A stretch of DNA of 33,582 nucleotides from Promethearchaeota archaeon (GCA_016930515.1 JAFGGO010000188.1:1-33582), one strand, 5' to 3'. Positions 2,770 through 33,582 are shown, numbered from the stretch's first letter. Notes: generated by a model not told the origin, from the sequence alone. Numbers and translations are program-made.

Positions 2770-2771
2770 AA

Positions 2772-10257: not shown

Positions 10258-10449
10258 TTACTTTTCATCTTCTCGTTTTCTAATATCTCTGATTCTCACT
10301 AATTCACGGAATTCCTGCTGTTTTTGCCTTATGATCTTTCTCCGCTCGACGATCCCTATCCTGTTTTTCCTCAGCAAGTCCTCCAATTTCTCGGTAAACT
10401 CTTCGAGCGTCAGGTTCTTGTCCATGACCGAGTCGTAGTCGATGCTCAC
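10258..10449 (-). CDS. Repeat-encoded small charged peptide, copy A
   Basis: The 63-aa product starts at GTG 10449, preceded by GAGGTGAT. The conserved module begins MSIDYDSVMDKNLTLEEF and continues through EKLEDLLRKNRIGIVERR to a RQKQQEF end. It is a short, highly charged and mostly helical peptide of unknown function. The repeat has no stop, so the frame runs out of the repeat and gains a private basic tail RELVRIRDIRKREDEK before the TAA at 10258. This is one of the longest tails in the family. The promoter is inside the repeat (TTTAAATAA, 10510-10518 region). I recognise no homologous domain. Confidence 0.6.
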   Translation of the reverse strand: MSIDYDSVMDKNLTLEEFTEKLEDLLRKNRIGIVERRKIIRQKQQEFRELVRIRDIRKREDEK

Positions 10450-10561
10450 TGTGTGGTAATCACCTCAACTAATCTGTTAAAACGACTTGTAACGTAATTT
10501 TACAAGGGTTATTTAAACGAAATATCGAGCCCGCCTTTATATGTGATTGCATTTCGAAAGG
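10310..10561 (-). repeat. Dispersed repeat, copy A (complete)
   Basis: This is the reference complete copy. Its left edge is AATTCCTGCTG and its right edge is GATTGCATTTCGAAAG. Read on the minus strand it has, in order: TTTCGAAATGCAATCACATATA, a TTTAAATA TATA box, the inverted repeat CTTGTAA/TTACAAG (10486-10492 and 10500-10506), the Shine-Dalgarno GAGGTGAT, GTG, and about 140 nt of open frame without a stop. Similarity continues weakly for about 50 bp past the right edge (GAGGAGTTTTATAAGATCC) in copies A, B, D, M and O. No terminal inverted repeats or target duplications are evident. Confidence 0.9.
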
Positions 10562-10661
10562 AAGAATCGAGGAGTTTTATAAGATCCGTTCGGATTGATA
10601 GATAAACGACCATGTTTCGAAGGCAAGATAATGCAACGATAATAACAAATTCAAGGAGAAA

Positions 10662-10778
10662 ATGCGATTGATGACTCTCGAGACCGAAGAATTCAACGAG
10701 AGAAGAACTTCCGAAATCGATCGATTCAGTTTCGTACCATTTACCTTTAAATACGAGATTCGTCTAATGAATATATAA
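10662..10778 (+). CDS. Possible small upstream ORF before propeller gene 1
   Basis: The 38-codon frame starts at ATG 10662 with AAGGAG just upstream and ends at TAA 10778. Its last 19 residues (RFSFVPFTFKYEI, then LMNI) are almost identical to the end of the small frame at 12826. The conserved DNA also contains the TTTAAATA box and may be constrained as promoter rather than protein. It could be a real leader peptide or a coincidence of a conserved promoter. Confidence 0.3.
   Translation: MRLMTLETEEFNERRTSEIDRFSFVPFTFKYEIRLMNI
10718..10760 (+). promoter_or_regulatory. Shared propeller promoter element, copy 1
   Basis: The core TTCAGTTTCGTACCATTTAC followed by CTTTAAATA is nearly identical to 12894-12936 and 30906-30937, each upstream of a propeller gene. 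TTTAAATA is a TATA-like box, and an ATATATAA box follows at 10771-10778, about 27 nt before ATG 10805. A common activator or repressor site is inferred. Confidence 0.55.
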
Positions 10779-10804
10779 TAAAGACTAAATTGAAATTTAA
10801 AAAA

Positions 10805-12439
10805 ATGAAAAGTATAATTTCGAAGAATAGAACAATTTCAACGCTTTTTTTTACGATATTCCTTTTCTCTCTCTCACTTGGGTTCACGATATCTTTTGGA
10901 GGGATGATCAATGGAGATGCCAGGTACATTCCGATGAGTTCAAATGTTCTTAAAACTTCGCAATCTCCAGATTGGAGCTCGGAAAAGGTTGCAATATGCA
11001 CGAAAATAGGAGAGCAATATAAATCCGAATCAATAATTGACGAAGATGGGAATATATTCGTTGTATGGAGAGATAATAGAAATGATGTGGAATCTTTTGA
11101 TTGGGATATTTTCGTTCAAAAGATCAATTCTTCTACAGGAACAGTTCAATGGACGGAAAACGGCGTAGCTGTGTGTGTATCGTCCGAAGAACAGCATTCG
11201 TACAAGCTCATTAGTGATGGTGCTGGAGGGGTGATTATCGTATGGGAGGATTTTAGGAATGATTATTCAGACATTTACGCCCAAAGAATTGATCCTATTG
11301 GTAATCCCCTATGGACTCCAAATGGAACAATTGTGTGTAATTCCATTAGTTGTCAATATAATCCTGGCATTATAAACGATGGTTCTGGAGGTGCAATTAT
11401 TGTTTGGGAGGATTATAGAAGCGGAAGCGGAAAGTGTATTTACGCCCAGAGAATTAACTCCACGGGACACGCGCAGTGGACTGCAAACGGAACGGTAATC
11501 CGCGCTGAAACTGAAAGTCAAACTAATCCCATTTTAATCAATGACGGTTATAATAACGCCATAATTGCGTGGGTAGAATACTCCGATCCTAGCATCTTAT
11601 TTGTTCAAAAAATAAATTCCTCAGGACAACCACAATGGACACCTGAAGGAGTGATAATCAGTACCGATGTAGAAGGTTATCAATTCCACAAAATAATAAG
11701 TGACGGTCTTGGAGGCGCGATAATCACATGGGAAGATATAAGAGAAGGGGAAAATGACGAAAACATATATGCACAGAGATTAAACTCAAGTGGATATGAA
11801 CAATGGGCTTCGGGAGGTCTTTCTGTCTGCAATTCAACAAATAGTCAAACAAGTCCTTTTCTTATAAGCGATGGTTCTGGAGGAGCAATCATTATTTGGG
11901 AAGATGCAAGAAACGGTAATTACCATGATATTTACGCTCAAAAAATCAATCGAATAGGTCAAGAGCAATGGACCAACAATGGTGTAACAATTTGTTTTCC
12001 GTGGGCTCATTCGAGCTTTCACCAGTCTCAAAAGGCCACAGAATTTGTCTTGGGTTTGTGCGGTTTGGTTAGTGATGAAACAGGAGGCACCATTATATCT
12101 TGGAAAGAGTGGAACGGAAACACGGGAAGAATCTATGCACAAAAAATTGATACTAAAGGCAACACCCAATGGAAAACAAATGGTGCTACAGTTTATACAG
12201 GATATTCGGTATCGAGTATGAATTTAGTTAGCGATGGTTCTGGGGGAGCCGTTGTTATCTGGGCAGAATCATCATATCCAGATATTTACTGCAAGCACAT
12301 TCCGTCTCAGGGATTTCCAGAATCCTCTGCAATAGCGGGATATGAATTACATATTATATTGGCGTCTTTGGGAATCGTAATGGTCGTGATTGGAATTTTA
12401 AGAATTAAAAAACGGAATTTTCAACACGAACTCTTTTAA
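10805..12439 (+). CDS. Surface protein 1: eight-repeat beta-propeller with C-terminal membrane anchor
   Basis: The 544-aa product starts at ATG 10805, about 27 nt after an ATATATAA box (TTG 10790 is the alternative). It has an N-terminal signal peptide or anchor (SIISKNRTISTLFFTIFLF). Eight degenerate repeats of about 52 residues follow, with consensus NG..VC....Q..P..ISDG.GGAIIVWED.R...DIYAQRINS.G..QW. The count of eight fits an eight-bladed beta-propeller. Repeat 7 is longer, with a 10-15 residue insertion. The C-terminus has AIAGYELH, a hydrophobic helix and a basic tail (RIKKRNF), so the protein should be anchored outside the cell. The ligand is unknown; adhesion or recognition is plausible. 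It lies directly right of repeat copy A. Confidence 0.85.
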   Translation: MKSIISKNRTISTLFFTIFLFSLSLGFTISFGGMINGDARYIPMSSNVLKTSQSPDWSSEKVAICTKIGEQYKSESIIDEDGNIFVVWRDNRNDVESFDWDIFVQKINSSTGTVQWTENGVAVCVSSEEQHSYKLISDGAGGVIIVWEDFRNDYSDIYAQRIDPIGNPLWTPNGTIVCNSISCQYNPGIINDGSGGAIIVWEDYRSGSGKCIYAQRINSTGHAQWTANGTVIRAETESQTNPILINDGYNNAIIAWVEYSDPSILFVQKINSSGQPQWTPEGVIISTDVEGYQFHKIISDGLGGAIITWEDIREGENDENIYAQRLNSSGYEQWASGGLSVCNSTNSQTSPFLISDGSGGAIIIWEDARNGNYHDIYAQKINRIGQEQWTNNGVTICFPWAHSSFHQSQKATEFVLGLCGLVSDETGGTIISWKEWNGNTGRIYAQKIDTKGNTQWKTNGATVYTGYSVSSMNLVSDGSGGAVVIWAESSYPDIYCKHIPSQGFPESSAIAGYELHIILASLGIVMVVIGILRIKKRNFQHELF

Positions 12440-12472
12440 ATCATAAAATTATTTTTTTAAATGTAATAATAC

Positions 12473-12954: not shown

Positions 12955-12980
12955 CCTAAGATAATTTAAATAAAAGAAAA

Positions 12981-14801
12981 ATGAAAACGAAAACTTCGAA
13001 AAAAAACATCCATATTAAGTTCTTGTTATCGATACTCCTCATATTTCTTGCCCTTGGATTTTTTTCTAATTTAGGCGTTTTAAACCCCGAGAACGATGAA
13101 AACAAACTGATGGATTCAAATCTTAAAACTTCCCAATCCGTTCATTGGGATTCACGTGAGGTTGCTATATGCACGGAAGACGGAGATAAGTATTATTTTA
13201 CATCAATCTACGACGAATTGGGCTCGAGCTTTATCGCGTGGACTGATCAGAGGGACGAAAGTGAAGATAGGTTGTATCTGCAAAAGCTCAATTCGTCCAC
13301 GGGACAAGTTCAGTGGATCGAAAACGGCTTGTTAATTTCTAATAATGTTATGTATCATGATGGAGCATATATGATTAGTGATGGTGCTGGTGGAGTCATC
13401 ATTGCGTGGGAAGACCATAGAACAGGAAGCGCTGACAAGTACGGCGATATCTACGCCCAGAGAGTTAATTCTACTGGAGATATTCTTTGGACAACTGGTG
13501 GCGTGGCAATCTGTTCCACTAACGATTCTCAATGTCAACCTCATATCGTTAGCGATGGATGTGGTGGTGCAATTATCACGTGGTCTGATGGAAGGAATGG
13601 AGCATATAATTACGATATTTACGCCCAAAGAATCAATTCAACGGGACACACGCAATGGATTGCAAACGGAACAGCCGTTTGTAACGAATTGAACTCTCAA
13701 GTTTACCATGCGGTCGTTAGCGACGGATTGGGAGGGGCAATCGTATTATGGCAAGTTTATCTTGAATTAAACGACGCTCTTTTTGCCCAAAGAATCAACT
13801 CCACCGGAAATGTGCAATGGATCGAGGAGGGCGTTAAAATATCCGATTACCTCGGATCTTGGGGCAATTTTCAATTAATTAGCGACAACAATGGAGGCGC
13901 AACCACAGTCTGGCTTGATTGGGAGAATGGACAGTTTAATCCGAAGGTTTACGCACAGAAAATAGATTCAAATGGGACCTTGCAATGGGGGAATTATGGC
14001 ATCCCAGTTTGTACATCAACGGGGAATCAAAATGCTCCAAGAATCATAGGAGACGGGGATGAAGGCGTCATCATCTTGTGGAAGGACGATAGAAACGGAA
14101 ATTACAATATATACGCTCAAAAAATTAATCTTAATGGTGAAGAACAATGGACTCACGATGGCGTTAAAATATGCAATCCAAAATTAGTTTATTCATTAAA
14201 TTTGGTTAGCGATGGGACTGGAGGAGCCATTATTGCGTGGTTAGAATGGAGCGGAAACACGGGAAGAATTTACACTCAGAGAATCGATGACGAAGGTAAT
14301 ACAAAATGGACTCCTAATGGTGTTGCTGTCGTGACGGCATCTGGGATGGAGCGCATGTCATTAGTTAGTAACGGGCTTGGTGGTGCGATCGTATTCATGA
14401 ATAAATACGAGTACCCTTATAATAACATATACGCTCGTTGCATTCCTCACGAGGGCATTGCCAATCCATCTTCTAATCTCGAATTAATCTTGATCATAGT
14501 ACTTTCAATTGTGATAATTTCGATCATAGCAGTGAGTATTTTCGTGGTTCTTAAAAAACGAAAAGCTGGAAAACTCTCTGGTGAAGCAGCTCGCGATAAG
14601 ACCATAGAAAAATTTATGAAAAAGCATAATAGACAAACTCTTGATCCTGATTTTAGGTTAGGATTAGCGCGTCATTACCAAGATAAGGGAGATATCGATC
14701 AAGCGATTCTTAATTACAATATAGTACTCGAGTTAGACCCAGACAATCAAGAAGCCCGAGCGAGCTTGAATTCCATCAACCCTCTCAATCACGAATCCTA
14801 A
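12981..14801 (+). CDS. Surface protein 2: eight-repeat propeller, membrane helix and cytoplasmic TPR
   Basis: The 606-aa product has a signal peptide (KKNIHIKFLLSILLIFLAL) and eight propeller repeats of the same family (for example DGAGGVIIAWEDHR and GDIYAQRVNSTG). A strong membrane helix follows at about 500-524 (ILIIVLSIVIISIIAVSIFV), then KKRK. Unlike its paralogues it continues for about 78 residues that should be cytoplasmic, including a TPR motif: FRLGLARHYQDKGDIDQAIL and ELDPDNQEARASL. This layout could pass an external binding event to an internal partner or tether an internal complex to the surface. The partner is unknown. It lies between repeat copies B and C. Confidence 0.85.
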   Translation: MKTKTSKKNIHIKFLLSILLIFLALGFFSNLGVLNPENDENKLMDSNLKTSQSVHWDSREVAICTEDGDKYYFTSIYDELGSSFIAWTDQRDESEDRLYLQKLNSSTGQVQWIENGLLISNNVMYHDGAYMISDGAGGVIIAWEDHRTGSADKYGDIYAQRVNSTGDILWTTGGVAICSTNDSQCQPHIVSDGCGGAIITWSDGRNGAYNYDIYAQRINSTGHTQWIANGTAVCNELNSQVYHAVVSDGLGGAIVLWQVYLELNDALFAQRINSTGNVQWIEEGVKISDYLGSWGNFQLISDNNGGATTVWLDWENGQFNPKVYAQKIDSNGTLQWGNYGIPVCTSTGNQNAPRIIGDGDEGVIILWKDDRNGNYNIYAQKINLNGEEQWTHDGVKICNPKLVYSLNLVSDGTGGAIIAWLEWSGNTGRIYTQRIDDEGNTKWTPNGVAVVTASGMERMSLVSNGLGGAIVFMNKYEYPYNNIYARCIPHEGIANPSSNLELILIIVLSIVIISIIAVSIFVVLKKRKAGKLSGEAARDKTIEKFMKKHNRQTLDPDFRLGLARHYQDKGDIDQAILNYNIVLELDPDNQEARASLNSINPLNHES

Positions 14802-14832: not shown

Positions 14833-15003
14833 TTAAAATAAAAATTTATAAGTGAAGGTGCGAAACTCTTGGGTCTTAACGCGTATGATCTTTCTCCGCT
14901 CGACGATCCCTATCCTGTTCTTCCGAAGCAAATCTTCCAATTTCTCGGTAAACTCCTCCAAGGTTAAATTCTTGTCCATGACCGAGTCGTAGTCGATGCT
15001 CAC
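14833..15003 (-). CDS. Repeat-encoded small charged peptide, copy C
   Basis: The 56-aa product starts at GTG 15003 behind GAGGTGAT. The module is intact, but its end differs (IIRVKTQEF) and it gains the tail RTFTYKFLF from unique DNA before the TAA at 14833. The region NLTLEEF uses different codons (aat tta acc ttg) for the same residues as copy A, a sign of protein-level constraint. Confidence 0.5.
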   Translation of the reverse strand: MSIDYDSVMDKNLTLEEFTEKLEDLLRKNRIGIVERRKIIRVKTQEFRTFTYKFLF

Positions 15004-15114
15004 TGTGTGGTAATCACCTCAACTATTCTGTTAAAACGACTTGTAATGTAATTTTACAAGGTTTTTTAAATAAGACATCGAGTCATCGTATATATGTGAT
15101 TGCATTTCGAAAAG
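14862..15114 (-). repeat. Dispersed repeat, copy C (complete)
   Basis: This complete copy lies between propeller gene 2 and a plus-strand TA operon. The hairpin is CTTGTAA/TTACAAG as in copy A, and the two share the same leader variant (GTGTGGTAATCACCTC), so A and C form a subgroup. The left 20 bp is more divergent (ACTCTTGGGTCTT). Confidence 0.85.
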
Positions 15115-15207: not shown

Positions 15208-15435
15208 ATGATGAGTAAGATTACGAAAAAGGACTTACACGACCTTATTGAACGAATGCCAGAAGGATTTACATTAGAAGACCTGCAATATCGCTTGTTT
15301 GTCCTTCAAAAGTTGGAGAAAGCAGAAGCGCAACTGAAACAAGGACAAAAAACGACAACGCTCGACGAGATGAGAGATTTGGTAAAACAATGGCGCGGTG
15401 AAATGGAACAAGGAAATACCAGGAACGTTCAATAA
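15208..15435 (+). CDS. Antitoxin of a ParE/RelE-type module
   Basis: The 75-aa product starts at ATG 15208. It has a predicted N-terminal helix pair (KKDLHDLIERMPEGFTLEDL) and a C-terminal charged helix. It shares the pattern LPxxxSxEDixYxLxxxxKI...G......E......W with three other antitoxins in this window (21001, 27303, 28024). It is 16 bp upstream of the ParE-like toxin, the standard antitoxin-first order. Such antitoxins wrap the toxin and repress their own promoter. Confidence 0.75.
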   Translation: MMSKITKKDLHDLIERMPEGFTLEDLQYRLFVLQKLEKAEAQLKQGQKTTTLDEMRDLVKQWRGEMEQGNTRNVQ

Positions 15436-15451
15436 AAAAAATCACTAAAAA

Positions 15452-15736
15452 ATGATTGAAATCCGCTTTCACCCGATTGCAACCGAAGACATGAGGGACA
15501 TTTACACCTATCACGCTCAATTTTCCTTGCAATACGCCGATTCTCTTATAGAAGGGCTTTTAAACACGATAGAAGTTCTCAGAGAGTTCCCCGAAATAGG
15601 TCGAAAATACCCAGAGAACGAACTATATCGTCAATTAATTTATCAAAATTACAGAATCATATACAAATTCGATAAACAAGAAAATAAAATCATCGTGATG
15701 ATCATCGTGCATTGTTCTCGACAATTAAGAATCTAA
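15452..15736 (+). CDS. ParE/RelE-superfamily toxin
   Basis: The 94-aa product has the family pattern: an N-terminal strand IEIRFHPIATEDMRDI, a helical hairpin, EFPEIGRKYPE, then the core RQLIYQNYRIIYKF and C-terminal VHCSRQLRI. RelE members cleave ribosome-bound mRNA and ParE members poison gyrase; motifs alone do not decide which applies. The frame is intact. Repeat copy D abuts the stop codon directly. Confidence 0.85.
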   Translation: MIEIRFHPIATEDMRDIYTYHAQFSLQYADSLIEGLLNTIEVLREFPEIGRKYPENELYRQLIYQNYRIIYKFDKQENKIIVMIIVHCSRQLRI

Positions 15737-15903
15737 AGGTCTCGAGCGTTAAATTCTTGGTTGTCCGTGACCGATTCGTGGTCGATGCTCACTGTTTCAA
15801 CACCACCTCAACCAATCTATAGTTAAGCCTTGTAATGCTATTTTGCAATGGCTTTTTAAACGAAATATCGGGTTGTCCTTTACATGTGATTGCATTTAGA
15901 AAG
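15737..15903 (-). repeat. Dispersed repeat, copy D (3' half missing, +4 bp variant)
   Basis: The promoter, hairpin (CCTTGTAATGC...GCAATGG), Shine-Dalgarno and GTG (15792) are kept, but the C-terminal half of the peptide is gone and the copy begins immediately at the ParE stop codon. It carries the 4-bp GTTG insertion (plus strand) that changes DKNLTL to DNQEF. The leftover frame is 19 codons (15733-15792). Confidence 0.85.
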
Positions 15904-16072: not shown

Positions 16073-16303
16073 ATGACAACCATACCTGTTGATAAAGAAT
16101 TTTTAGACGATTTGATCGATTTCAAGTTGAAAGCTCTCAAGGAAGAGGTAAATAAAATCCTAGAAAGATGGGATTATAAATCGTCGAACTTATTTCTCCA
16201 GCACGCCATGGACGGTACGATCAACGAAGCAGAAGAGGATGCAATTATATTAAAAAATCTTCAAGATCAAATTCTTGATTTAACGAATAAAAAACAAGAA
16301 TAA
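16073..16303 (+). CDS. Putative antitoxin partner of TumE-like toxin
   Basis: The 76-aa acidic helical product (VDKEFLDDLIDFKLKALKEE, then a C-terminal helix ILKNLQDQILDLTNKKQE) lies 10 bp upstream of a TumE-like gene, in the antitoxin position. I do not recognise the fold with confidence; known TumA partners of TumE are small and DNA-binding. ATG 16073 is close behind an AT-rich promoter. Confidence 0.6.
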   Translation: MTTIPVDKEFLDDLIDFKLKALKEEVNKILERWDYKSSNLFLQHAMDGTINEAEEDAIILKNLQDQILDLTNKKQE

Positions 16304-16313
16304 CAGGATTCAA

Positions 16314-16646
16314 ATGAACGCTTTAGAAAAGCTTAATATTGCCAAACTCTTGCTGGAGGAATATTTGGAAAACCTTATCATATCAATATCTGTTAATTAC
16401 GATTTCAAGCGAATCCATGTCCTTTTGAAGGACGGTGTTAACATATACATCGTTTATAACAACCACGAAGAATACAGCTATTCCGTTATTTTTTCCAAAC
16501 TAGAGCTCGATCGTTGTAGGTTTGATAATTACGACAAGGTTTGGGACGTTCCTTCTCGACCGCATCATTTTCATCCAAGATTTAAAAACGAAGCTGTTCA
16601 AAGCAGCATGACGGGCGACCCAAATCAAGACATCCCTCTTATGTAA
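16314..16646 (+). CDS. tumE: TumE-like toxin (DUF6516 family)
   Basis: The 110-aa product shows the family layout: strands carrying IYIVYNNHEEYSYSVIF, then KLELDRCRFDNYDKVWD, and a His/Pro-rich C-terminus RPHHFHPRFKNEAV followed by MTGDPNQDIP. The PHHFHP...GDP..D signature is what I know from TumE/DUF6516 toxins. The gene is coupled to the preceding small gene (AGGAT before ATG) as expected for a TA pair. The frame is intact. Assignment is from memory of the motif. Confidence 0.65.
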   Translation: MNALEKLNIAKLLLEEYLENLIISISVNYDFKRIHVLLKDGVNIYIVYNNHEEYSYSVIFSKLELDRCRFDNYDKVWDVPSRPHHFHPRFKNEAVQSSMTGDPNQDIPLM

Positions 16647-16703: not shown

Positions 16704-16815
16704 GAATTCCTGCTGTTTCTGCCTTATTATCTTGCGCCGCTCGACGATCCCTATCCTGTTTTTCCTCAACAAATCCTCCAATTTCTCGGTGAATTTCTCG
16801 AGCGTCAAGTTCTTT
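16704..16815 (-). repeat. Dispersed repeat, copy E (3' half only)
   Basis: Only the C-terminal half is present (NLTLEKFTEKLEDLL to QKQQEF); promoter and start are missing. It lies 9 nt downstream of the DUF5615 stop codon on the same strand and in the same frame, so read-through of a single TAA would fuse it to the toxin. The protein sequence is conserved despite the missing start. Confidence 0.85.
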
Positions 16816-16823: not shown

Positions 16824-17186
16824 TTACCTAATCCGTATGTTATTTTCTGAAATAATGATTAGTTTATTTAGATATTTATTTTGCTTTAAATCAATATTTT
16901 GCAAGGCTTTTTCTAAAAGCGCATTTGTTGCTTTTGGATGAGGTGATACAACTTGAAGCACTATGATTAATGGTGGTGTCCCCTGAAAAAAGCGATGGAG
17001 CACGCCGAATCCTCTATCGTGAGTTAAGATCGGCAATTTTTTTAAGATAGCGTGTTCAAAAATTTTCTCGTCTTCGATTCCAGCCTGTAAAATATCTTCG
17101 ATTTTTAAAACTTTAAATCCAGCTTTAATCAAGCAGGAAATTGTTGATTTAGCCAGACATTCGTCAACAATTATTTCCATCGACAT
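16824..17186 (-). CDS. DUF5615 PIN-like toxin (VapC45/Mut7-C type)
   Basis: The 120-aa product has the N-terminal acidic strand MEIIVDECL, KAGFKVLKIEDIL, EDEKIFEHA and the late motif PILTHDRGFG, the D...E...THDxDF-like order of DUF5615 PIN-like RNases. ATG 17186 follows the DUF433 gene by 12 bp. Together they form a DUF433-DUF5615 antitoxin-toxin pair (VapB45-VapC45 type). The frame is complete, unlike the second such toxin near the right edge (32781-33139). Confidence 0.8.
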   Translation of the reverse strand: MSMEIIVDECLAKSTISCLIKAGFKVLKIEDILQAGIEDEKIFEHAILKKLPILTHDRGFGVLHRFFQGTPPLIIVLQVVSPHPKATNALLEKALQNIDLKQNKYLNKLIIISENNIRIR

Positions 17187-17198
17187 CCCATTAAATGG

Positions 17199-17441: not shown

Positions 17442-17518
17442 TAATTATAAAAAAAATCGATCAAATAAACCTTACTATATTCTTAGAGTTAAAATTGACA
17501 AAATTAATATTATAAAAC

Positions 17519-17715: not shown

Positions 17716-17768
17716 ATTCCAGTTTTATGCCAGATGGATTTTTATTTCTAATAAATAATAAGAATGAT

Positions 17769-24951: not shown

Positions 24952-26859
24952 ATGAACAAAATAGAAAGAAAGTTCCAGAGAAAAAAGATCAAGAGATTAA
25001 AAGGAAAACAAATAAAAACAGGAATTTTATTAATTTTATTTCTTGTATTTCCATTAATAATGACTATTAATCTAGTGCTTGAAATTAATTTCATTGATTC
25101 AGAGAAAATTGAAAACCTTTATCTGAAAAATTCTTTAAGCGTAGCATGGGAAGACGATGGTACATTAATCCATTCTACGACGGAAATTATCTATGATTAC
25201 CAAATGATAACTGATGGTGAAGGTGGTGTGATCATCTCTTGGGCTGACGATAGGAGTAGTGATATCGATATTTATGCTCAAAAGATCAATTCTGAGGGTC
25301 AAATACAATGGGAAGCAAACGGTACGGTCGTGTGTAATGTATCGGGAATTCAATTCAAACCACAAATAGTTAGTGACGGTGAAGGCGGTGCAATAGTGAT
25401 CTGGGAACATTGGGGCACATATTATAAGGATCTTTACGCTCAAAGAATCAATTCCATTGGACAACTTCAATGGAACATTAATGGGGTTCCGATTTGCACT
25501 GCGTATAACAACCAAAGGAATCATCAAGTCATTAGCAATGGCCAAGGTGGTGCAATCATTGTCTGGGAGGACGAAAGAACAGGGGATTATAATTACGACA
25601 TTTACGCTCAATGCATAAATTCGACGGGTTATTTACAATGGATCTCTGATTGTGCTGTTTGTACCTCAGAAAACATACAAAAAAACCCATGCTTATCTTG
25701 CGATGGCGAAGGTGGTGCCGTGATTGTTTGGCAAGATAATCGGAGCCAGAACGGATTTGACATTTACGCACAACGGATAAATCTTGAAGGACTTGCTCAA
25801 TGGATTCCAAACGGAGTCGTTATTTGCAGCGATTTAGGAACGCAAGGAGAAATTCAAATCACCAATATTAGCTCGGAAGGCGTTGCGATCGCGTGGAGCG
25901 ACGATAGAAACGGAAACCTTGATATATACGCACAATTCGTTAACATGTCTGGAATCTCACAATGGTCCGAAAACGGCACGATTGTTTGTAACGCGCAAGA
26001 AGATCAAATTTCTCCACAAATCTGTAGTGATGGTTCTGGGGGCGCAATTATGACTTGGGAAGATTATAGAACTCCCTACGATGCTTACGAGTGGAGCAAC
26101 ATTTACGCCCAGAAAATGGATTCTAATGGCAACGCGCAATGGACTCCGAACGGTTTTACCGTATGTAATAACATTATGCCTCAATTACGCCCCAAGATCG
26201 TTAGCGACGGCTCTGGAGGCGCAATTATAGCTTGGGAAGATATGAGACGCGGAACTCACGCTATTTACGCCCAGTGGGTAAATTCATCAGGTTATTCAAA
26301 ATGGGTCAGTAACGGCACGAATATATGTGGAACATATACCATTCAATATAATATACAACTTGTTAGCGACGGTTCTGGTGGGGCGATCATAGCGTTGCAG
26401 GGAGCAGAAGATGCTTGGAGTTACTTCATTGCTCAACGGAAACGACCAAACGACGCTCCTTCAGTTAAAATCCATCCCGAAGATTTCATCGTTTCCACTA
26501 AATACCCCAGTACGATTATTTGGTCTTTAACCGATGATTCTGGTTTAGGAGAATATCGAGTGATCGCAAATGACTCTTCGGGAAATTATAACACGAAAGT
26601 AGACTGGACTATTTGGAGGAACGATGAGTATCTCTACGTTTATCCCGAAAATTTAGCTTTAGGCGTTTTTAATTTTACGATAGAATATCGCGACAATGAT
26701 GGAGAGTTTGGTCAACCAGACACGGTTATAATAACAGTAACTTACAATGTTACAAGACCGATACCTGGATATGATTCGACGATCACTATTTTTGTATTAA
26801 TTATTTCAGTTTTATCAATTGTTATCATATTCATTCAAAAAGAACAACTCAAGTATTAG
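24952..26859 (+). CDS. Surface protein 5: eight-repeat propeller plus Ig-like domain and anchor
   Basis: The 635-aa product has a basic N-terminus and a signal or anchor helix (GILLILFLVFPLIMTINLV). Eight repeats follow (for example TDGEGGVIISWADDRSSDID and SDGSGGAIIAWEDMR); the last has lost its Trp (IIALQG). An Ig- or cadherin-like domain follows (IIWSLTDDSGLGEYRVIAND, GVFNFTIEYRDNDGEFGQPD), homologous to that of surface protein 3. The end is RPIPGYDSTITIF, a hydrophobic helix and KEQLKY. It lies between repeats J and K. An extracellular location is inferred. Confidence 0.85.
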   Translation: MNKIERKFQRKKIKRLKGKQIKTGILLILFLVFPLIMTINLVLEINFIDSEKIENLYLKNSLSVAWEDDGTLIHSTTEIIYDYQMITDGEGGVIISWADDRSSDIDIYAQKINSEGQIQWEANGTVVCNVSGIQFKPQIVSDGEGGAIVIWEHWGTYYKDLYAQRINSIGQLQWNINGVPICTAYNNQRNHQVISNGQGGAIIVWEDERTGDYNYDIYAQCINSTGYLQWISDCAVCTSENIQKNPCLSCDGEGGAVIVWQDNRSQNGFDIYAQRINLEGLAQWIPNGVVICSDLGTQGEIQITNISSEGVAIAWSDDRNGNLDIYAQFVNMSGISQWSENGTIVCNAQEDQISPQICSDGSGGAIMTWEDYRTPYDAYEWSNIYAQKMDSNGNAQWTPNGFTVCNNIMPQLRPKIVSDGSGGAIIAWEDMRRGTHAIYAQWVNSSGYSKWVSNGTNICGTYTIQYNIQLVSDGSGGAIIALQGAEDAWSYFIAQRKRPNDAPSVKIHPEDFIVSTKYPSTIIWSLTDDSGLGEYRVIANDSSGNYNTKVDWTIWRNDEYLYVYPENLALGVFNFTIEYRDNDGEFGQPDTVIITVTYNVTRPIPGYDSTITIFVLIISVLSIVIIFIQKEQLKY

Positions 26860-26915: not shown

Positions 26916-27000
26916 TAATTTCTGAGTCTTTTGCTTTATGATCTTTCTCCGCTCGACGATCTCTATCCTGTCTTTCCTCAGTAAATCCTCGGGCTTTTCG
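26916..27000 (-). repeat. Dispersed repeat, copy K (3' half only)
   Basis: Only about 85 bp remains: FSEKPEDLLRKDRIEIVERR to IIKQKTQKL. It lies about 30 bp downstream of the ParE gene at 27031, on the same strand but in a different frame. It shares the KDRI variant with copy L, its neighbour. Confidence 0.8.
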
Positions 27001-27030
27001 GAAAAAGAGTTTGAACTTTTTCAGAAAAAG

Positions 27031-27315
27031 TTAAAATCTAACAATTCTACTTCCGTGAACGACAATTAAAATTTCGATAAATTCTTTCCCAATTTCGTAT
27101 ACAATTCTATAATCCTTATGAAAGAATTCTCTTAGCGTTTCTTCATTTTTATCTGGAAACTTGCGTCCCATATATGGAAAGTCTTTTAGTTGTTCTATTT
27201 TTTTAAATATTTCTTTAACAAAATTCTTTGCTCTCTTGGGTGAATCTTTTGAAATATAGGACGAAATATTCTCAAGATCTTCCAAGGCACCGGTTGAAAA
27301 TCTCACTCCAACCAT
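27031..27315 (-). CDS. ParE/RelE-superfamily toxin
   Basis: The 94-aa product has the family pattern VGVRFSTGALEDLENISSYI, KDFPYMGRKFPD, LREFFHKDYRIVYEI and VHGSRIVRF. The frame is intact. ATG 27315 overlaps the antitoxin end by 13 nt. Its biochemical target (ribosome-bound mRNA or gyrase) cannot be told from sequence. Confidence 0.85.
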   Translation of the reverse strand: MVGVRFSTGALEDLENISSYISKDSPKRAKNFVKEIFKKIEQLKDFPYMGRKFPDKNEETLREFFHKDYRIVYEIGKEFIEILIVVHGSRIVRF

Positions 27316-27488
27316 TTTTTCATCCGATCCTTGGCATTTTCAAGGGAGATATGCTGTCCGCTTTCAATTTGTTGTCGTGCTCTATCGATTTTATCGTTAA
27401 GGTATAGTTTATAAGCTATTTCTTCGATACTTAAATCTTCTGGTAATTCCCGAATAAAATCTATCGCAATTTCTTTTGTTGAAGGCAT
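27303..27488 (-). CDS. Antitoxin of ParE/RelE-type module
   Basis: The 61-aa product (KEIAIDFIRELPEDLSIEEI, YKLYLNDKI, C-terminal KDRMKKWLE) is the same family as 21001 and 28024. It is intact, upstream of and overlapping the toxin start. Confidence 0.8.
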   Translation of the reverse strand: MPSTKEIAIDFIRELPEDLSIEEIAYKLYLNDKIDRARQQIESGQHISLENAKDRMKKWLE

Positions 27489-27636: not shown

Positions 27637-27736
27637 AGAGTTTCTGCGCTTTCTGGCGCACGATCTTTCTCCGCTCGACGATCCCTATCCTGTCTTTCCT
27701 CAGTAAATCCTCCAATTTCTCGGTATACTCTTCGAG
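27637..27736 (-). repeat. Dispersed repeat, copy L (3' half only)
   Basis: The remnant reads LLEEYTEKLEDLLRKDRIG to KIVRQKAQKL and then a stop. It lies just downstream of the ParE pseudogene and in the same frame, separated by two stop codons. Promoter and start are absent. Confidence 0.8.
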
Positions 27737-27751: not shown

Positions 27752-28036
27752 TTATAATCTCAGCAAACGACTTCCGTGAAAAACCGAGATAATTTCAACA
27801 AGATCGTCCACGATTCGATATATAATTCTATAGTTTTGAAATAATAATTCGCGAATAAGAGCGTTGTTAAGTTCTGGTACGATCCTTCCAATTTTTGGAA
27901 ATTCTACTAGTTTTTGAACCGAATCGTATAACTTATTGATAAAAATTTTCGCATACGCTGCTGAATCGCGTGCGATGTAATCCTTGATCTCACTTAAATC
28001 TTCAATGGAACGATCTGTCCATTCTAATCAAACCAT
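27752..28036 (-). pseudogene. ParE/RelE-like toxin with TGA at codon 3
   Basis: The start at ATG 28036 is fixed by the 13-nt overlap with the antitoxin, as in the two sister modules. Codon 3 is TGA; thereafter the frame is a complete family member (EWTDRSIEDLSEIKDYIARD, VEFPKIGRIVPE, IRELLFQNYRIIYRI, FHGSRLLRL). The antitoxin ends Phe-Asp in the overlapping frame (TTT GAT), and that spelling is what makes the TGA. No ATG, GTG or TTG start replaces it close by, so the toxin is probably silent. Confidence 0.8.
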
Positions 28037-28209
28037 TTTTCGATTACTTCTTTGGCTTTTTCGTTCGATACTTTCTTTCCCTCGTCTGCGTCTTTTAAAC
28101 CACGAAGTATTTTTTCTCTAGCGTATAAATGATACATGATGTCTTCTACGGAAACATCATCGGGAAGATCCTTTATCATTTGAATAATATTTTCTTTTTC
28201 TGTTGCCAT
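28024..28209 (-). CDS. Antitoxin of ParE/RelE-type module with silenced toxin
   Basis: The 61-aa product starts at ATG 28209 (MATEKENIIQMIKDLPDDVS); a longer frame from 28281 adds a hydrophobic stretch unlike the sister proteins. It has EDIMYHLYAREKI and the C-terminal EKWFD, where its sisters have KWLE or KWLK. The frame is intact. Confidence 0.75.
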   Translation of the reverse strand: MATEKENIIQMIKDLPDDVSVEDIMYHLYAREKILRGLKDADEGKKVSNEKAKEVIEKWFD

Positions 28210-28356
28210 GATACAGTCCTCAAGTAAAATATCAAAATCAAATATAATAAACCTATTGATTTTATATATTATAAAATTCATGTATGAAAAGTCATGCTTC
28301 CTCTTTCAATAAATATGGGAAAAATAAAGCCCATTGCAAAAAATTCAAGAGAAATA

Positions 28357-28609
28357 AATTCTTGCTGTTTCTGGCGTATGATCTTTCTCCGCTCGACCAT
28401 CCCTATCCTGTTCTTTCGCAGCAAATCCTCCAATTTCTCGGTAAACTCCTTGAGCGTCAGGTTCTTGGTTGTCCGTGACCGAGTCGTAGTCGATGCTCAC
28501 TTGATATAACTACCTCAACCAATCTTTAGTAACGCCTTGTAGTACCATCCTACCAAGGCTATTTAAAAAGAATATCGGGTTAACCTATATATGTGATTGC
28601 ATTTCGAAA
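28357..28609 (-). repeat. Dispersed repeat, copy M (complete length, +4 bp variant)
   Basis: The copy is full length with GTG 28500 but has the GTTG insertion, so the N-terminal frame (DNQEPD...) does not reach the intact C-terminal half (LTLKEFTEKLEDLLRK to QKQQEF). The hairpin is CCTTGGTAGG...CTACAAGG as in G. Similarity to A and D continues past the right edge (GGAGTTTTTCAAGATCC). Confidence 0.9.
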
Positions 28610-28689: not shown

Positions 28690-28717
28690 TTTATAAGTAT
28701 GCAATGCATATTTGCAT
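28690..28717 (+). promoter_or_regulatory. Promoter and operator of VapBC copy 2
   Basis: A TTTATAAG box (28690-28697) is followed by ATGCAA (28699-28704) inverted against TTGCAT (28712-28717), just before the vapB ATG at 28720. The same sequence precedes VapBC copy 1 with one mismatch (ATGTAA). The position fits VapBC autoregulation. Confidence 0.55.
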
Positions 28718-28719
28718 AT

Positions 28720-28950
28720 ATGAGAACGAGCATAATCATTGACGATTCCATGAAAGACAAGTGGTGGGACATTAAAAAGGAAGCTGCGAGGTTAAACATG
28801 AAAATCAGCGAATATATCGTTTTTTGCCACGAAATTAGGAAGAAAAACGAGACAAAAGACAAGTTACTTGAAATTTTAGGAAATCCTCTCGAGAATGGAG
28901 CGAAAAACATCGACGCCATTGCTGCAAGCAAGAACACGTGGAAAACATGA
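28720..28950 (+). CDS. vapB: VapB ribbon-helix-helix antitoxin, copy 2 (intact)
   Basis: The 76-aa product starts at ATG 28720 (MRTSIIIDDSMKDKWWDIKK), which supplies the RHH beta-strand; the second helix is MKISEYIVFCHE. GTG or ATG codons further upstream lie in the operator. The C-terminus (NIDAIAASKNTWKT) overlaps vapC by ATGA. It is the parent-like copy of the decayed module at 19799. Confidence 0.8.
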   Translation: MRTSIIIDDSMKDKWWDIKKEAARLNMKISEYIVFCHEIRKKNETKDKLLEILGNPLENGAKNIDAIAASKNTWKT

Positions 28951-29354
28951 AAGGAATCGATTCAAACGTCATCATTTATGCCCTTAACAAGGACTTGCCC
29001 GAGCACGAACCTTGCAGGGTCCTCCTCGAAAAAGTAGCCAAGGGACTTGAAACTATTGCCATCCCTGCCGTCGTTTTGATGGAGAGTTACCACGTTCTCG
29101 TGAGAGCGTATAAATTCGCGCCTTCTGAAGTAAAAAAACGCTTGGTTTCTATCATTGAATCCGAAAACATAACCATATTGGGACAGGGATTATCTTCGAT
29201 CTTGCTGGCGTTTGATGTTGCCGAGGATTTCGACACGGGCGGGCGCGATTCGCTCATAGCAGCCTGTCTATTGGAAAACAACATCAAGGAAATTTATTCT
29301 CACGATAGCGATTTTGATAAAATTCGACTAATAAAAAGAATTGATCCTGTCTAA
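28947..29354 (+). CDS. vapC: VapC PIN-domain toxin, copy 2 (intact)
   Basis: The 135-aa product starts at ATG 28947. PIN motifs are MKGIDSNVIIYAL (Asp), VVLMESYHVL (Glu), DTGGRDSLIAACLL and SHDSDFDKI (acidic residues), all present. The pair with 19996-20403 is about 90 percent identical by eye, showing recent duplication of the whole module. A CTGTCTA-AA-TAGACAG hairpin covers its stop codon. Confidence 0.85.
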   Translation: MKGIDSNVIIYALNKDLPEHEPCRVLLEKVAKGLETIAIPAVVLMESYHVLVRAYKFAPSEVKKRLVSIIESENITILGQGLSSILLAFDVAEDFDTGGRDSLIAACLLENNIKEIYSHDSDFDKIRLIKRIDPV

Positions 29355-29364: not shown

Positions 29365-29526
29365 TCATGGGATTAAAGAGGGGGTAAACTCCTGCTGTTC
29401 CTGTCGGATGATCTTCCGTCGCTCGACGATGCCGACCTTGTTCTTTCTCAGCAGGTCCTCGAGCTTTTCGGTGAACTCTTCGAGCGTCAGGTTCTTGTCC
29501 ATGACCGAGTCGTAGTCGATGCTCAC
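29365..29526 (-). CDS. Repeat-encoded small charged peptide, copy N
   Basis: The 53-aa product starts at GTG 29526 behind GAGGTGGT. The module is intact (NLTLEEFTEKLEDLLRKNKV, RQEQQEF) with the tail TPSLIP. Third-position changes such as GAG CTT TTC TCG leave the residues unchanged relative to copy A. Confidence 0.5.
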   Translation of the reverse strand: MSIDYDSVMDKNLTLEEFTEKLEDLLRKNKVGIVERRKIIRQEQQEFTPSLIP

Positions 29527-29636
29527 TTGATTACACCACCTCAACCAATCTTTAGTTACGCCTTGTAGTAGCGTTCTACCAAGGCCATTTAAAAATAACA
29601 TCGGGTTAGCCTTTATATGTGATTGAATTTCGAAAA
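29386..29636 (-). repeat. Dispersed repeat, copy N (complete)
   Basis: This complete copy lies between VapBC copy 2 and the AbrB-PIN module. The hairpin is CCTTGGTAGAAC...CTACAAGG. The coding half is the most GC-rich of all copies. Confidence 0.9.
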
Positions 29637-29785: not shown

Positions 29786-30043
29786 GTGTTTAAAACGACT
29801 GAGAAATTAACGCAGAAAGTATCTTCAAATGGGAGGATAGTAATACCCAAGGAGTGGAGGGATAAATTAGCCATCGATGATACCAATTTAGTTGAAATGG
29901 AATTAAACGACGATAATGTAATTCTAATCAGAAAAAAGCTACACCCTCTCGAAATAGAGGATAACCTATTTGATGGAGTTTCTCCTTTCACGGACGAAGA
30001 ATTGGAAGATGTAAAAAAATCATTATTTCCAACTGAAGATTAA
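29786..30043 (+). CDS. AbrB/MazE-type antitoxin
   Basis: The 85-aa product starts at GTG 29786. It has KLTQKVSSNGRIVIPKEWRD and LVEMELNDDNVILIRKK, the swapped-hairpin AbrB core, followed by an acidic tail (DEELEDVKKSLFPTED) that would bind the toxin. The PIN toxin follows after 15 bp. It is different from the orphan AbrB-type gene at 2068. Confidence 0.85.
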   Translation: MFKTTEKLTQKVSSNGRIVIPKEWRDKLAIDDTNLVEMELNDDNVILIRKKLHPLEIEDNLFDGVSPFTDEELEDVKKSLFPTED

Positions 30044-30058
30044 TTTATTTGAATTAAC

Positions 30059-30463
30059 ATGACAGAAAAAGCAGTAATTGATGCACAAGTCCTCTTTTAT
30101 TTCCATTACAATTATAAGAAAATCCCCATGATGCTTCAGGAACTGAAGAAAAAGGTAATTGAAGGAGAAATAACCGTAATAATTCCCACTATTGCTATTT
30201 CTGAATTGATTTGGAAAATGCGAAGGGCAGGCAAATTAGAAGCAGTTAAAAAAGCCGTAGAGAGATGGGAACAATCTGAAAATGTGATCATCGACAATTT
30301 TGACATGTCGATCGTAAAGTTTATGCTTAAAAACACTAAGAGTCACGAATTACACGATGAAATCATAGCCATGATATGTAAAAAATACGGTACGAGCATC
30401 ATTTATTCTACTGATAAAAAATTTAAAGAAATATTTAATTTGAATCTGAGATCTTGGAAATAG
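30059..30463 (+). CDS. vapC: PIN-domain toxin of the AbrB-PIN module
   Basis: The 134-aa product has EKAVIDAQVLFYF (Asp), PTIAISELIWKM (Glu), HELHDEIIAMI and GTSIIYSTDKKFKEI (acidic residues), the PIN active-site order. The frame is intact. Partnered with an AbrB-type rather than RHH antitoxin, it is a separate VapC lineage from the other two. It lies between repeats N and O. Confidence 0.85.
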   Translation: MTEKAVIDAQVLFYFHYNYKKIPMMLQELKKKVIEGEITVIIPTIAISELIWKMRRAGKLEAVKKAVERWEQSENVIIDNFDMSIVKFMLKNTKSHELHDEIIAMICKKYGTSIIYSTDKKFKEIFNLNLRSWK

Positions 30464-30632
30464 AAATAGTGCAATAAAAGGATAAATCCTTAAATTCCTG
30501 CGTTTTCTGGCGCACGATATTGCGCCGTTTGACGATCCCAATACGGTTCTTGCGGAGTAGATCTTCCAATTTCTCGGCAAACTCTTCGAGCGTCAGGTTC
30601 TTGTCCGTGACCGAGTCGTAGTCGATGCTCAC
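30435..30632 (-). CDS. Repeat-encoded small charged peptide, copy O
   Basis: The 65-aa product starts at GTG 30632. The module is intact with several changes (EEFAEKLEDLL, GIVKRRNIVRQKTQEF). The tail KDLSFYCTISISKISDSN comes from DNA antisense to the end of the PIN gene. Confidence 0.45.
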   Translation of the reverse strand: MSIDYDSVTDKNLTLEEFAEKLEDLLRKNRIGIVKRRNIVRQKTQEFKDLSFYCTISISKISDSN

Positions 30633-30740
30633 TTGATAACACCACCTCAACCAACAAGTAATGACGCCATAATATCAAGTTAAAAGGGCTTTTTAAAAAG
30701 AAGATCGAGTCATCGTATAAATGTGATTGCATTTCGAAAA
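30492..30740 (-). repeat. Dispersed repeat, copy O (complete, hairpin degenerate)
   Basis: The full-length copy precedes propeller gene 6. Unlike other copies its hairpin region is scrambled (GCCATAATATCAAGTTAAAAGG), while TTTAAAAA, Shine-Dalgarno and GTG are kept. Similarity to copy B continues on the right through the next 200 bp, so repeat and propeller cassette may have been duplicated together. Confidence 0.9.
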
Positions 30741-30937: not shown

Positions 30938-30991
30938 CCATTAAAACTACATAATAACATACCAAAATGTTACAAAAATTTGGAACTAATA

Positions 30992-32614
30992 ATGAATATA
31001 ACAAGAAAAAAAAGAATAATCTTTCAATTTTTAATAGGATTCACTGTTTTATTTTCTATGGGGGTATTTTTTACTATTGGAACGATATATCAAGAAAATA
31101 CAGAAGTAAAAAATAATATAAACGAAATTGATCTCAAAGGATCTAGCATCGTGCCCAACAAGGCTAAAGGAGTCTTGATTTGTAATGCAGAGTTCTTCCA
31201 ATATTATCCAGTGATCGTTTCTGATGAAGATGGAGGAGCAATAATCGCCTGGCACGACGATAGAGAAGATAGATTGGAATACGACATATACGCACAGAGA
31301 ATAAATTCTTCGGGCCATCCACTGTGGAAGACAAACGGTACGGTGATATGCAATCTCCCAGGAGATCAAAACAGAATCCAATTGACTACGGATACTTTAG
31401 GTGGCGCCATAATTACTTGGCAAGATTTTAGGGAGTCTCCTGGTCGCGTTTACATTCAGCGGATAAACTCTTCAGGACATTGCCTTTGGGGTGCCAATGG
31501 AACTATCGTGAGCAATGCATCAGGGAGTCAAAAATATCCAAGATTAATTAGTGACGGAAATGGAGGGGCAATCGTTGTTTGGGAAGACTCTAGAAACGGT
31601 AACGAGGATATATATGTTCAAAAAATAAGCCCTGAAGGTCAATTGCTCTGGGGAGAAAACGGAACTGTCGTGTGCACGAGATCCGAAAAACAGACTTTTC
31701 CAATTATTATTTGCGACGGATCTAATGGTGCTATTATCGTTTGGGACGACGAAAGAAAAGGCGAGAATGACTGCGATATTTACGCACAACGAATAAATTC
31801 ATCAGGTACAGCGTGCTGGATTCTAAATGGAGTTTCGGTGTGCAACGCCTCTGGTAATCAATTTCTTGGTGATGTAATTAACGATAACAGTGGAAACGTG
31901 TATGCTACTTGGGAAGATCAGAGATCTGGCAGAGACATTTACATGCAAAAAATAGATCAAAACGGTTTCCTTCAATGGGATAGCAACGGTTTGGTAATTT
32001 GTAATGCACCTGGGGATCAAGGACATCCCAGCTTGATCTCAGACGGAGATGAGGGTGCAATCCTGATGTGGATCGACGGAAGAGGCGAAAATCTCTATCT
32101 TTGGGACATATACCTTCAAAACGTTAATTCTTCAGGAACTATCCAATGGACCTACAACGGAATTAAGCTTTGTAATTATGTGGGGTATAAATACCGTCCA
32201 GAACTAACAAGTGACGGTAACGGAGGCGCATTTATCACATGGGAGGATCACAGGACGGGTAATGGGAAAATTTACGCCCAGAAAATCAATTCATTAGGAA
32301 TGGAACAATGGAGAACAAATGGAGTGTGTATAGATTCCAAAGGATCCTCACAATCTACTCCAGAACTCGTAAGCGATGGTACAGGAGGAATTATTATCTC
32401 GTGGTGTGGTTCTGGGCCAGGAGCTAATAATATAGACATATACGCCCAGCGCTTGAATTCTGCTGGAACCTTACAATGGATTGATCCTGCCAATTCTGCA
32501 ATTCCCGGATTTGACATGACAATTACAAGTTTAATATTAATGTTTTCAATAATTTCAATCTGCTTGATACTTTTAATCGATAAGAAAAAACAATTTAATT
32601 CATTGAAAACATAA
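30992..32614 (+). CDS. Surface protein 6: eight-repeat propeller with membrane anchor
   Basis: The 540-aa product starts at ATG 30992 (MNITRKKRIIFQFLIGFTVL, a signal peptide); TTG 30980 is the alternative. Eight repeats follow, among them SDEDGGAIIAWHDDRED, SDGNGGAIVVWEDSRNGNED and SDGTGGIIISWCGSG. The end is AIPGFDMTITS, a hydrophobic helix and DKKKQFNSLKT. There is no extra domain, so it is closest in layout to surface proteins 1 and 4, while its upstream DNA is closest to that of gene 2. Confidence 0.85.
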   Translation: MNITRKKRIIFQFLIGFTVLFSMGVFFTIGTIYQENTEVKNNINEIDLKGSSIVPNKAKGVLICNAEFFQYYPVIVSDEDGGAIIAWHDDREDRLEYDIYAQRINSSGHPLWKTNGTVICNLPGDQNRIQLTTDTLGGAIITWQDFRESPGRVYIQRINSSGHCLWGANGTIVSNASGSQKYPRLISDGNGGAIVVWEDSRNGNEDIYVQKISPEGQLLWGENGTVVCTRSEKQTFPIIICDGSNGAIIVWDDERKGENDCDIYAQRINSSGTACWILNGVSVCNASGNQFLGDVINDNSGNVYATWEDQRSGRDIYMQKIDQNGFLQWDSNGLVICNAPGDQGHPSLISDGDEGAILMWIDGRGENLYLWDIYLQNVNSSGTIQWTYNGIKLCNYVGYKYRPELTSDGNGGAFITWEDHRTGNGKIYAQKINSLGMEQWRTNGVCIDSKGSSQSTPELVSDGTGGIIISWCGSGPGANNIDIYAQRLNSAGTLQWIDPANSAIPGFDMTITSLILMFSIISICLILLIDKKKQFNSLKT

Positions 32615-32773
32615 AATCTTTTTTTTCATTAAATATAAAAAAGTCAATGGAGAGGTACGAAATTCCTGAGTCTTTTGCCTTATTATCCTTCTCCGATCGA
32701 CGATCCCTATCCTGTTTTTCCTCAGCAAGTCCTCCAATTTCTCGATAAACTCTTTTAAAGTCAAGATTCTCAT
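32600..32773 (-). CDS. Repeat-encoded peptide, copy P, with its own ATG
   Basis: Although the repeat's promoter and GTG are missing, an ATG at 32773, 7 nt after the DUF5615 stop, opens MRILTLKEFIEKLEDLLRKN and continues IVDRRRIIRQKTQEF. The tail (RTSPLTFLYLMKKK...) runs to 32600, just over the end of propeller gene 6. It could be translated as the last gene of the DUF433-DUF5615 operon. Confidence 0.4.
   Translation of the reverse strand: MRILTLKEFIEKLEDLLRKNRIGIVDRRRIIRQKTQEFRTSPLTFLYLMKKKILCFQ
32660..32773 (-). repeat. Dispersed repeat, copy P (3' half only)
   Basis: It keeps the left edge AATTCCTGAG and the C-terminal half and ends at CTCAT, where the complete copies have the NLTLEE codons. 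It lies directly downstream of a minus-strand DUF433-DUF5615 module, as copy E does. Confidence 0.85.
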
Positions 32774-32780
32774 TAAAATA

Positions 32781-33139
32781 TCAATTTTTTTCACGAAAAA
32801 CAGGACCTTCTTTTTCCAATAATAACAATTTCTCTTCAAGGACCTTTACATTCAAGGAACCAATTAATTCTTCAAAAACAGGAAGTACATTTTCGTCTAT
32901 TAATGGATGGATGCTAATTACTACTAAAAAATGTTGTCTTCCGTGCTTAAAATAGATAAAATCCTTGTCATAACTAATAAGAATTCTCCGTTCTCTTCGA
33001 GCTAATTCCATTAATTCGCTATTCTTTATCCCTTTCTTGCCTAAATCTTGAACGGTGACCGTGTCGTGTCCTGAATTTATCAAGAGTTTTTTAAGGTTAT
33101 TGGAAACATTTTCGTCTAATAGAAATCTCTATCTTTCAT
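32781..33139 (-). pseudogene. DUF5615 PIN-like toxin with N-terminal frameshift
   Basis: ATG 33139 overlaps the DUF433 stop (ATGA) but reads MKDRDFY and stops. Two bases on, the expected FLLDENVSNNLKKLLINSG frame runs to 32781 with LGKKGIKNSELMELA and RILISYDKDFIYF, the DUF5615 motifs. An extra GA pair within AGAGATTT (about 33125-33130) explains the shift. The acidic N-terminal Asp-Glu lies after the lesion, so a downstream start would lose the first strand. Confidence 0.8.
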
Positions 33140-33360
33140 GTGTGGGTACTGTTTCGTTCCTCAAGAGTCATTCGGGCATATCCTATAGCAGTAGCTATGT
33201 CTTCTCGAGATAATTGCGGATAGGCATCGATAATTTCATCGAAAGTCTTTCCCGCTTCTAACCATTCGAGAATCAGATCGATCATTATTCTCGTGCCTTT
33301 TATTCGAGGCTTTCCGTGGCAGATATCAGGATCGATTTCTATCTTGCTATTTTGCATCAT
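33136..33360 (-). CDS. DUF433 antitoxin
   Basis: The 74-aa product has the family pattern IEIDPDICHGKPRIKGTRIM, ILEWLEAGKTFDEIIDAYPQ and SREDIATAIGYA. The frame is intact and its stop overlaps the toxin ATG. It is the second DUF433 in the window, clearly divergent from that at 17199, so it is not a recent duplicate. Confidence 0.85.
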   Translation of the reverse strand: MMQNSKIEIDPDICHGKPRIKGTRIMIDLILEWLEAGKTFDEIIDAYPQLSREDIATAIGYARMTLEERNSTHT

Positions 33361-33488
33361 ACTATGAATATCATCTTCAGATTCTAATTAATATTTTACC
33401 ATTCATACACGATGGAGTTAAAAATTGAAATTCATTCGATAAATAATATCGAATTATCAAGGTATCGATTTCAATCGATAAAATAGAT

Positions 33489-33582
33489 AAATTCCTGCGT
33501 TATTGGCGCACGATCTTGCGCTGCACGACGATCTATACCATGTTTTTCCGCAGCAGGTCCTCGAACTTTTCGGTAAACTCCT
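33489..33582 (-). repeat. Dispersed repeat, copy Q (cut by the window edge)
   Basis: The C-terminal half is visible up to the edge (EFTEKFEDLLRKN) but decayed, with two in-frame stops (KNMV*IVVQRKIVRQ*). It shows that the array continues beyond the window. Confidence 0.8.

Follow-up and report, generated by a model that had tools for sequence, protein, structure and literature searches.

Toxin-antitoxin modules and propeller genes spaced by partial copies of a small-protein gene at a single Lokiarchaeon locus

Tandem elements can collect at the end of a single gene, as with the staphylococcal cassette chromosome (SCC) at rlmH and the islands at tRNA genes, and the dif (pdif) sites of Acinetobacter are Xer sites of ~28 bp that alternate in orientation. 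In pdif modules, toxin-antitoxin (TA) and other genes are exchangeable between repeated sites without a recombinase of their own (PMC6449649, PMC13141974). Integrons and clusters of attC sites lacking integron integrases (CALINs), archaeal ones included, are arrays at one locus with about one cargo per cassette, repeats in a single orientation and many TA modules, and CALINs are without the integrase by definition (PMC9668308). Here, we describe a locus in Promethearchaeota archaeon, a Lokiarchaeon, that resembles each of these: an array of repeats separating TA modules and propeller genes on JAFGGO010000188.1:1-33582 (GCA_016930515.1). This stretch of 33,582 nucleotides, hereafter the window, is the entire contig C66 of a 4.0-Mb assembly with 190 contigs (~94% complete).

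The original prediction, made from the sequence of the window, was of an integron-like array without an integrase. The array is real. We give an even chance to its being a cassette-like array in which the repeats recombine with one another, through homologous recombination or gene conversion. In favor of this speak its confinement to one locus, the regular number and orientation of cargo units, the diversity of the TA modules, duplicated cassettes, the mosaic nature of the copies, their derivation from a gene under purifying selection and the finding of a single tyrosine recombinase gene, XerA. The integron label falls for want of an integrase, and any account of the growth of the array is a proposal.

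Layout of the array and its cargo

Seventeen copies of a ~250-bp repeat (A to Q) lie between 10310 and 33582, all on the minus strand, as had been predicted. A full copy consists of a regulatory region with a 5′ untranslated region (UTR), here called R, and the beginning of a coding sequence, L. Both parts are present in ten copies, including Q, which is cut by the end of C66 and split over two contigs; five copies have L only (at 16705, 23695, 26917, 27639 and 32661) and two have R only (at 15742 and ~17518). Features are listed from left to right.

10258-10449, minus: gene A, 63 aa, the one full-length copy of the small-protein gene, lying leftmost in the array
10310-10561, minus: repeat A, L and R
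10790-12439, plus: propeller gene, cargo of A; predicted beta-propeller with N-terminal and C-terminal helix
12486-12736, minus: repeat B, L and R
12981-14801, plus: propeller gene, cargo of B
14864-15113, minus: repeat C, L and R
15208-15736, plus: RelB/ParE-type TA pair, cargo of C (PF05016)
15742-15903, minus: repeat D, R only, beginning 5 bp past the toxin stop
16073-16646, plus: TumE-like TA pair, cargo of D (PF20126, just below cut-off)
16705-16814, minus: repeat E, L only
16824-17441, minus: DUF433/DUF5615 TA pair, between L of E and R of F
17518-17715, minus: repeat F, R and first codons of L
17637-19676, plus: propeller gene, cargo of F; the start given here falls within R, and the gene probably begins further right
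19763-20403, plus: VapBC, the other cargo of the F interval; VapC is cut short by a premature stop, and the pair has an intact relative at 28699-29354
20444-20693, minus: repeat G, L and R
20754-21201, minus: RelEB, cargo of G, with a broken frame in RelE; departs from the orientation rule given below
21324-21573, minus: repeat H, L and R
21682-23334, plus: propeller gene, cargo of H
23695-23767, minus: repeat I, L fragment
23823-24499, minus: VapCB, cargo of I (PF01850, PF02697)
24598-24850, minus: repeat J, L and R, +4 frame form with a stop in L
24952-26859, plus: propeller gene, cargo of J
26917-27005, minus: repeat K, L only
27031-27488, minus: RelEB, cargo of K; 82% DNA identity to C37:2197-2789, L included
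27639-27736, minus: repeat Lc, L only
27755-28281, minus: RelEB, cargo of Lc
28357-28609, minus: repeat M, L and R, +4 frame form
28699-29354, plus: VapBC, cargo of M (PF01850)
29387-29635, minus: repeat N, L and R
29786-30463, plus: AbrB/MazE-type antitoxin and PIN toxin, cargo of N (PF04014, PF01850)
30493-30739, minus: repeat O, L and R
30980-32614, plus: propeller gene, cargo of O
32661-32755, minus: repeat P, L only
32781-33360, minus: DUF433/DUF5615 TA pair, cargo of P
33489-33582, minus: repeat Q, cut by the contig end; probably continues at C37:1-170

The array appears to extend beyond the window. A 10.3-kb contig, C37, opens with the missing half of a repeat copy and adds further copies or remnants and a decayed R; in L, Q is 90-91% identical to the next copy on C37 (S), and the start of C37 and copy S have unusual core variants in common. 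From the matching halves, on contigs without overlap, we infer that Q and the start of C37 are one copy and that the two contigs adjoin. The search of the 4-Mb genome gave 21 DNA matches to the repeat, all of them on C66 and C37, and no such array was found in 96 relatives. Copies spread evenly over the genome with no link to cargo would have spoken against the prediction; what we found is a single locus with a near one-to-one link. A mobile element, such as an insertion sequence or transposon array across the genome, is ruled out by this single location. Inverted repeats, searched for at lengths of at least 60 bp, were absent from the window.

By our own count over both contigs, there are 22 cargo units in 20 intervals; 18 of the intervals contain a single unit, two contain a pair of units and none is empty, a regularity with p ~1e-6 under a multinomial model and 1e-9 for random order. 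The cargo comprises 15 TA modules, which fall into about six kinds (five RelBE/ParE-like, four VapBC, three DUF433/DUF5615, one AbrB-PIN, one UPF0175-PIN and one TumE-like), six propellers and one operon for a CheB-CheR protein, a PAS histidine kinase and a response regulator, situated in the continuation of the array (L022 2946-7023). At least ten of the TA units are unrelated to one another. It had been proposed that most intervals contain a single unit, and that TA pairs lie at 20.7-21.2 and 23.8-24.5 kb; both proposals are borne out, the former pair being RelEB with its broken RelE and the latter VapB/VapC. The propeller genes, likewise recognized at the outset, are also found elsewhere in the genome without the repeat.

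Orientation follows a rule (Fisher p = 7e-5). With R at its left side, cargo points rightward in 11 of 12 cases; with R absent or broken there, cargo runs leftward, into L, in all eight.

In L022, a copy of the DUF433 gene that is intact at window 17199-17441 is split by an insertion of ~1.16 kb (7688-8847), in which a TnpB-like open reading frame (ORF) fragment can be made out by eye.

The repeat and its parent gene

Read along the minus strand, R comes first and is followed by L, which covers the start and first ~46 codons. The order within R is a nearly invariant block, TTTCGAAATGCAATCACATATATA, a short hairpin, the sequence GAGGTGGT, a possible ribosome-binding site, and the start codon GTG; L then reads LTLEEFTEKLEDLLRKNRIGIVERRKIIRQKQQEF, and the core of the repeat is GAGCATCGACYACGA. 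The invariant block has as its own core a 21-bp motif, CGAAATGCAATCACATNTAWA (window 10536-10556 and 11 further sites), whose 12 matches genome-wide, at up to two mismatches, all fall inside a repeat.

L is coding and under purifying selection in complete copies. Differences among ten copies are mostly silent (proportions of silent and amino-acid-changing differences, pS 0.65 and pN 0.10), with pS 0.67 and pN 0.10 in the seven whose L is in frame with the start; constraint is looser in the L-only copies (pS 0.51, pN 0.17). In six copies a 4-bp insertion between start and L shifts the frame. The earlier proposal that the repeat encodes a peptide is thus upheld, and the peptide is conserved. A structured RNA was rejected: the repeat has no match in Rfam, and the segments folded, 71 nt of the UTR of R, did no better than shuffles (z 0 to -1.6) and showed no attC-like structure. 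RNAalifold predicted 15 pairs, of which one shows a double-sided change.

The tail of gene A, FRELVRIRDIRKR, resembles the tail FKDLTRTRDVRNRN of its ortholog in the congener Lokiarchaeota EB_bin_12, which has both N-terminus and tail in common with copy A, as befits a host small-protein gene. Left of QEF, a shuffle test detected the tail in no copy other than A, while by eye copy O may retain three more codons beyond QEF. Since copy A keeps an ortholog-like tail and the others do not, it is the gene itself, of which all other repeats are partial copies. With a profile of L, small genes turn up in other lokiarchaea, most of which have a single one; the profile also matches the C-terminal domain of proteins of ~430 aa (L049, L055, L048 and L056); at L049, this protein adjoins a small-GTPase-like gene. 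For the product of gene A, AlphaFold predicts a two-helix hairpin (pLDDT 92.5), for which the structural search returned no significant match.

Some other routes to the origin of the repeat were set aside. Decayed full gene copies were rejected for lack of tail homology outside A, a point that is not decisive given gene conversion inside repeats. Nor did synteny give an empty site: the HEAT-repeat gene beside the EB_bin_12 ortholog sits elsewhere in this genome, and the TPR protein at the left contig end has only weak partial matches in two congeners.

The identity patterns of L and R are uncorrelated. This independence had suggested a crossover confined to the conserved core, an idea that we dropped because short (30-bp) blocks within L and within R are about as poorly correlated as L is with R. 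As low correlation could equally reflect a star tree, the pairwise homoplasy index (PHI) test was run, and the term mosaic is based on it. Whole repeats and R both reached the lowest p that 500 permutations allow, 0.002, and the evidence was weaker within L (p = 0.014 at 15 bp and 0.20 at 30 bp). Rejection of the no-recombination model supports recombination among copies, which are mosaics of short tracts such as homologous recombination or gene conversion would give. Restriction of recombination to one site is not supported.

Three cassette types (VapBC, L-RelEB and L-DUF5615-DUF433-R) are present twice, at 81-92% identity, and in the two duplicated TA pairs that were measured silent change exceeds amino-acid change. 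At the left, L has a common, sharp edge, within ~10 nt across copies. The flanks beyond it are mostly unrelated to each other; those of C and P, both of which follow propellers, are related (z 4.8). At the right, no more than about half of the copies have an exact edge: six share at least 30 bases past the conserved block and five end at the block. Such sharp edges may mark junctions; they may also mark how far selection and gene conversion reach.

Recombinases and the region left of the array

No integrase gene was recognized in the window, in line with the original prediction. Across the genome, the PF00589 search matched a single gene, XerA, the only tyrosine recombinase match (NF040815, 240 bits, cut-off 220; TIGR02249 integrase_gron, 97.5, cut-off 265). 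A complete integron was rejected on these grounds, there being no IntI; what the locus does have in common with integrons and CALINs is a cassette array with one gene or operon each and repeats in one orientation. Serine recombinases gave two matches, on other contigs. No tRNA was found, and tRNA-associated integration was rejected.

The gene nearest to the array on its left is the following:

9005-10216, plus: putative HUH-type rolling-circle Rep, with an NHHFHAIG motif recognized by eye, ending ~40 bp left of gene A

For Rep, searches of Pfam, PHROGs and NCBIfam returned no match, and PDB sequences gave no noteworthy one. It belongs to a plasmid-like group at 2739-10216, together with a large ORF without family matches, a HerA-like ATPase, a nucleotidyltransferase resembling the cyclases of cyclic-oligonucleotide-based antiphage signaling systems (CBASS; match below its cut-off) and a frame-broken nuclease-like gene (8139-8810). 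We read the region left of gene A as a probable integrated plasmid-like element, linked to the array by position only. A second Rep, 74% identical, is found on a 7.2-kb contig, C5 (L032 920-2987), beside an intact relative of the nuclease-like gene, and a partial third, with an in-frame TAG, at L033 (contig C101, 37995-38681). Rep relatives in three other genomes have mostly different neighbors, HerA-like and nucleotidyltransferase genes among them. Around the other Rep copies and the Rep relatives there are no long direct repeats. A known virus was rejected as carrier of the array, the core, the L peptide, Rep and the HerA-like protein being without match in viral contigs, as was a known plasmid, with no Rep match in plasmids.

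Origin of the array and comparison with known systems

We prefer a cassette-like array mainly because there is one repeat per cargo unit across many unrelated TA families. New modules would arrive as pieces of repeat plus cargo, either acquired from related cells or duplicated inside the array, and would be joined and reshuffled through repeat-repeat recombination by the general recombination machinery of the cell; we propose that this machinery suffices, so that a dedicated integrase would be unneeded. The TA modules would resist loss and so stabilize the array, and L, to judge from the gene layout, would be transcribed leftward, from R or from a leftward TA operon. The prediction had made the repeat the recombination unit or boundary of a cassette system. 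The near one-to-one link to cargo, the single locus and the sharp left edge agree with this, whereas site-specific recombination is not supported, the repeat being a truncated host coding gene with mosaic copies, ends that are not co-inherited and a variable right edge.

Several points weigh against the cassette-like array. With one array in one genome, gain, loss or swap of a single cassette was not seen, and homologous recombination between repeats cannot by itself create the first junction of cargo and repeat edge. The two ends of a cassette, R(i) and L(i+1), are not inherited together (matrix correlation r = -0.20), and a cassette unit of R-cargo-L, which gave no signal in this comparison, was rejected. 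Strong silent-site divergence among copies makes present activity doubtful. The blocks compared, of 9-14 sequences, are short and too noisy to give tract lengths. Interval counts and the orientation rule were tallied after the layout had been seen, and the test of the rule used the data in which it had been noticed. It is unlikely, in our view, that the locus is a new Asgard cassette-capturing platform in which, without an integron-type integrase, the resident coding gene would be the insertion point, each incoming cassette would supply a new 5′ part that keeps the gene intact, and older cassettes with truncated copies would pile up behind.

A serious rival, somewhat unlikely as we judge it, is an old tandem amplification of a divergent pair of small-protein and propeller genes, with spacers later colonized by TA modules; sharp edges would then lie where selection or gene conversion stops and would not be recombination sites. 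It would account for propellers in six intervals, several with a leader sequence in common with the repeat, and for the related flanks left of C and P; gene conversion would homogenize repeats up to their edges, and the high silent-site divergence would also fit. Yet propellers would have to be replaced by TA modules in more than ten intervals with none left empty, a trace of the tail is absent left of every copy but A, and most left flanks are unrelated. The common left edge, the proximity of Rep to gene A and the confinement of the 21-bp motif to repeats could point instead to a trans-acting enzyme (Rep, XerA or one absent from the assembly) that joins cassettes at gene A, the newest leftmost. 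Intact copies are indeed more frequent toward the left (one-sided p = 0.023), and identity to the consensus declines rightward (rho -0.51, p = 0.026), but this is a weak gradient that had not been foreseen before the data were inspected. As there is also no integron integrase, no long direct repeat around other Rep copies and relatives, no limitation of mosaic breakpoints to a core and no constant right edge, we consider such a site-specific system improbable. Least probable is that the repeat is a regulatory gene unit, R and the motif controlling the small protein and the divergent cargo of a co-regulated cluster. Purifying selection on L, a nearly invariant, array-specific motif and R placed left of rightward cargo would suit it; against it, several copies carry a frameshift, a truncation or a stop, L-only copies are under looser constraint, and the variety of TA cargo would go unexplained.

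If the cassettes of the array we favor do move, Asgard archaea would gather TA and surface-protein genes at a single site with no integrase, which would add to integrons a second route of gene accumulation in the archaea closest to eukaryotes. Even if static, the locus is a clear case of a surface-protein gene cluster interspersed with single addiction modules that copies of a host gene set apart. It differs from integrons and CALINs in that no IntI was found, the repeat of ~250 bp is protein-coding and derived from a host gene, with no attC-like fold seen, and cargo lies on both strands by a regular rule. Unlike pdif sites, the repeats are long and all in one orientation. As in SCC and tRNA-gene islands, a resident gene is partly duplicated at each junction and intact at one end; here, by contrast, no integrase is carried, the units measure ~0.6-3 kb, and it is the 5′ part of the gene, with its promoter, that is repeated.

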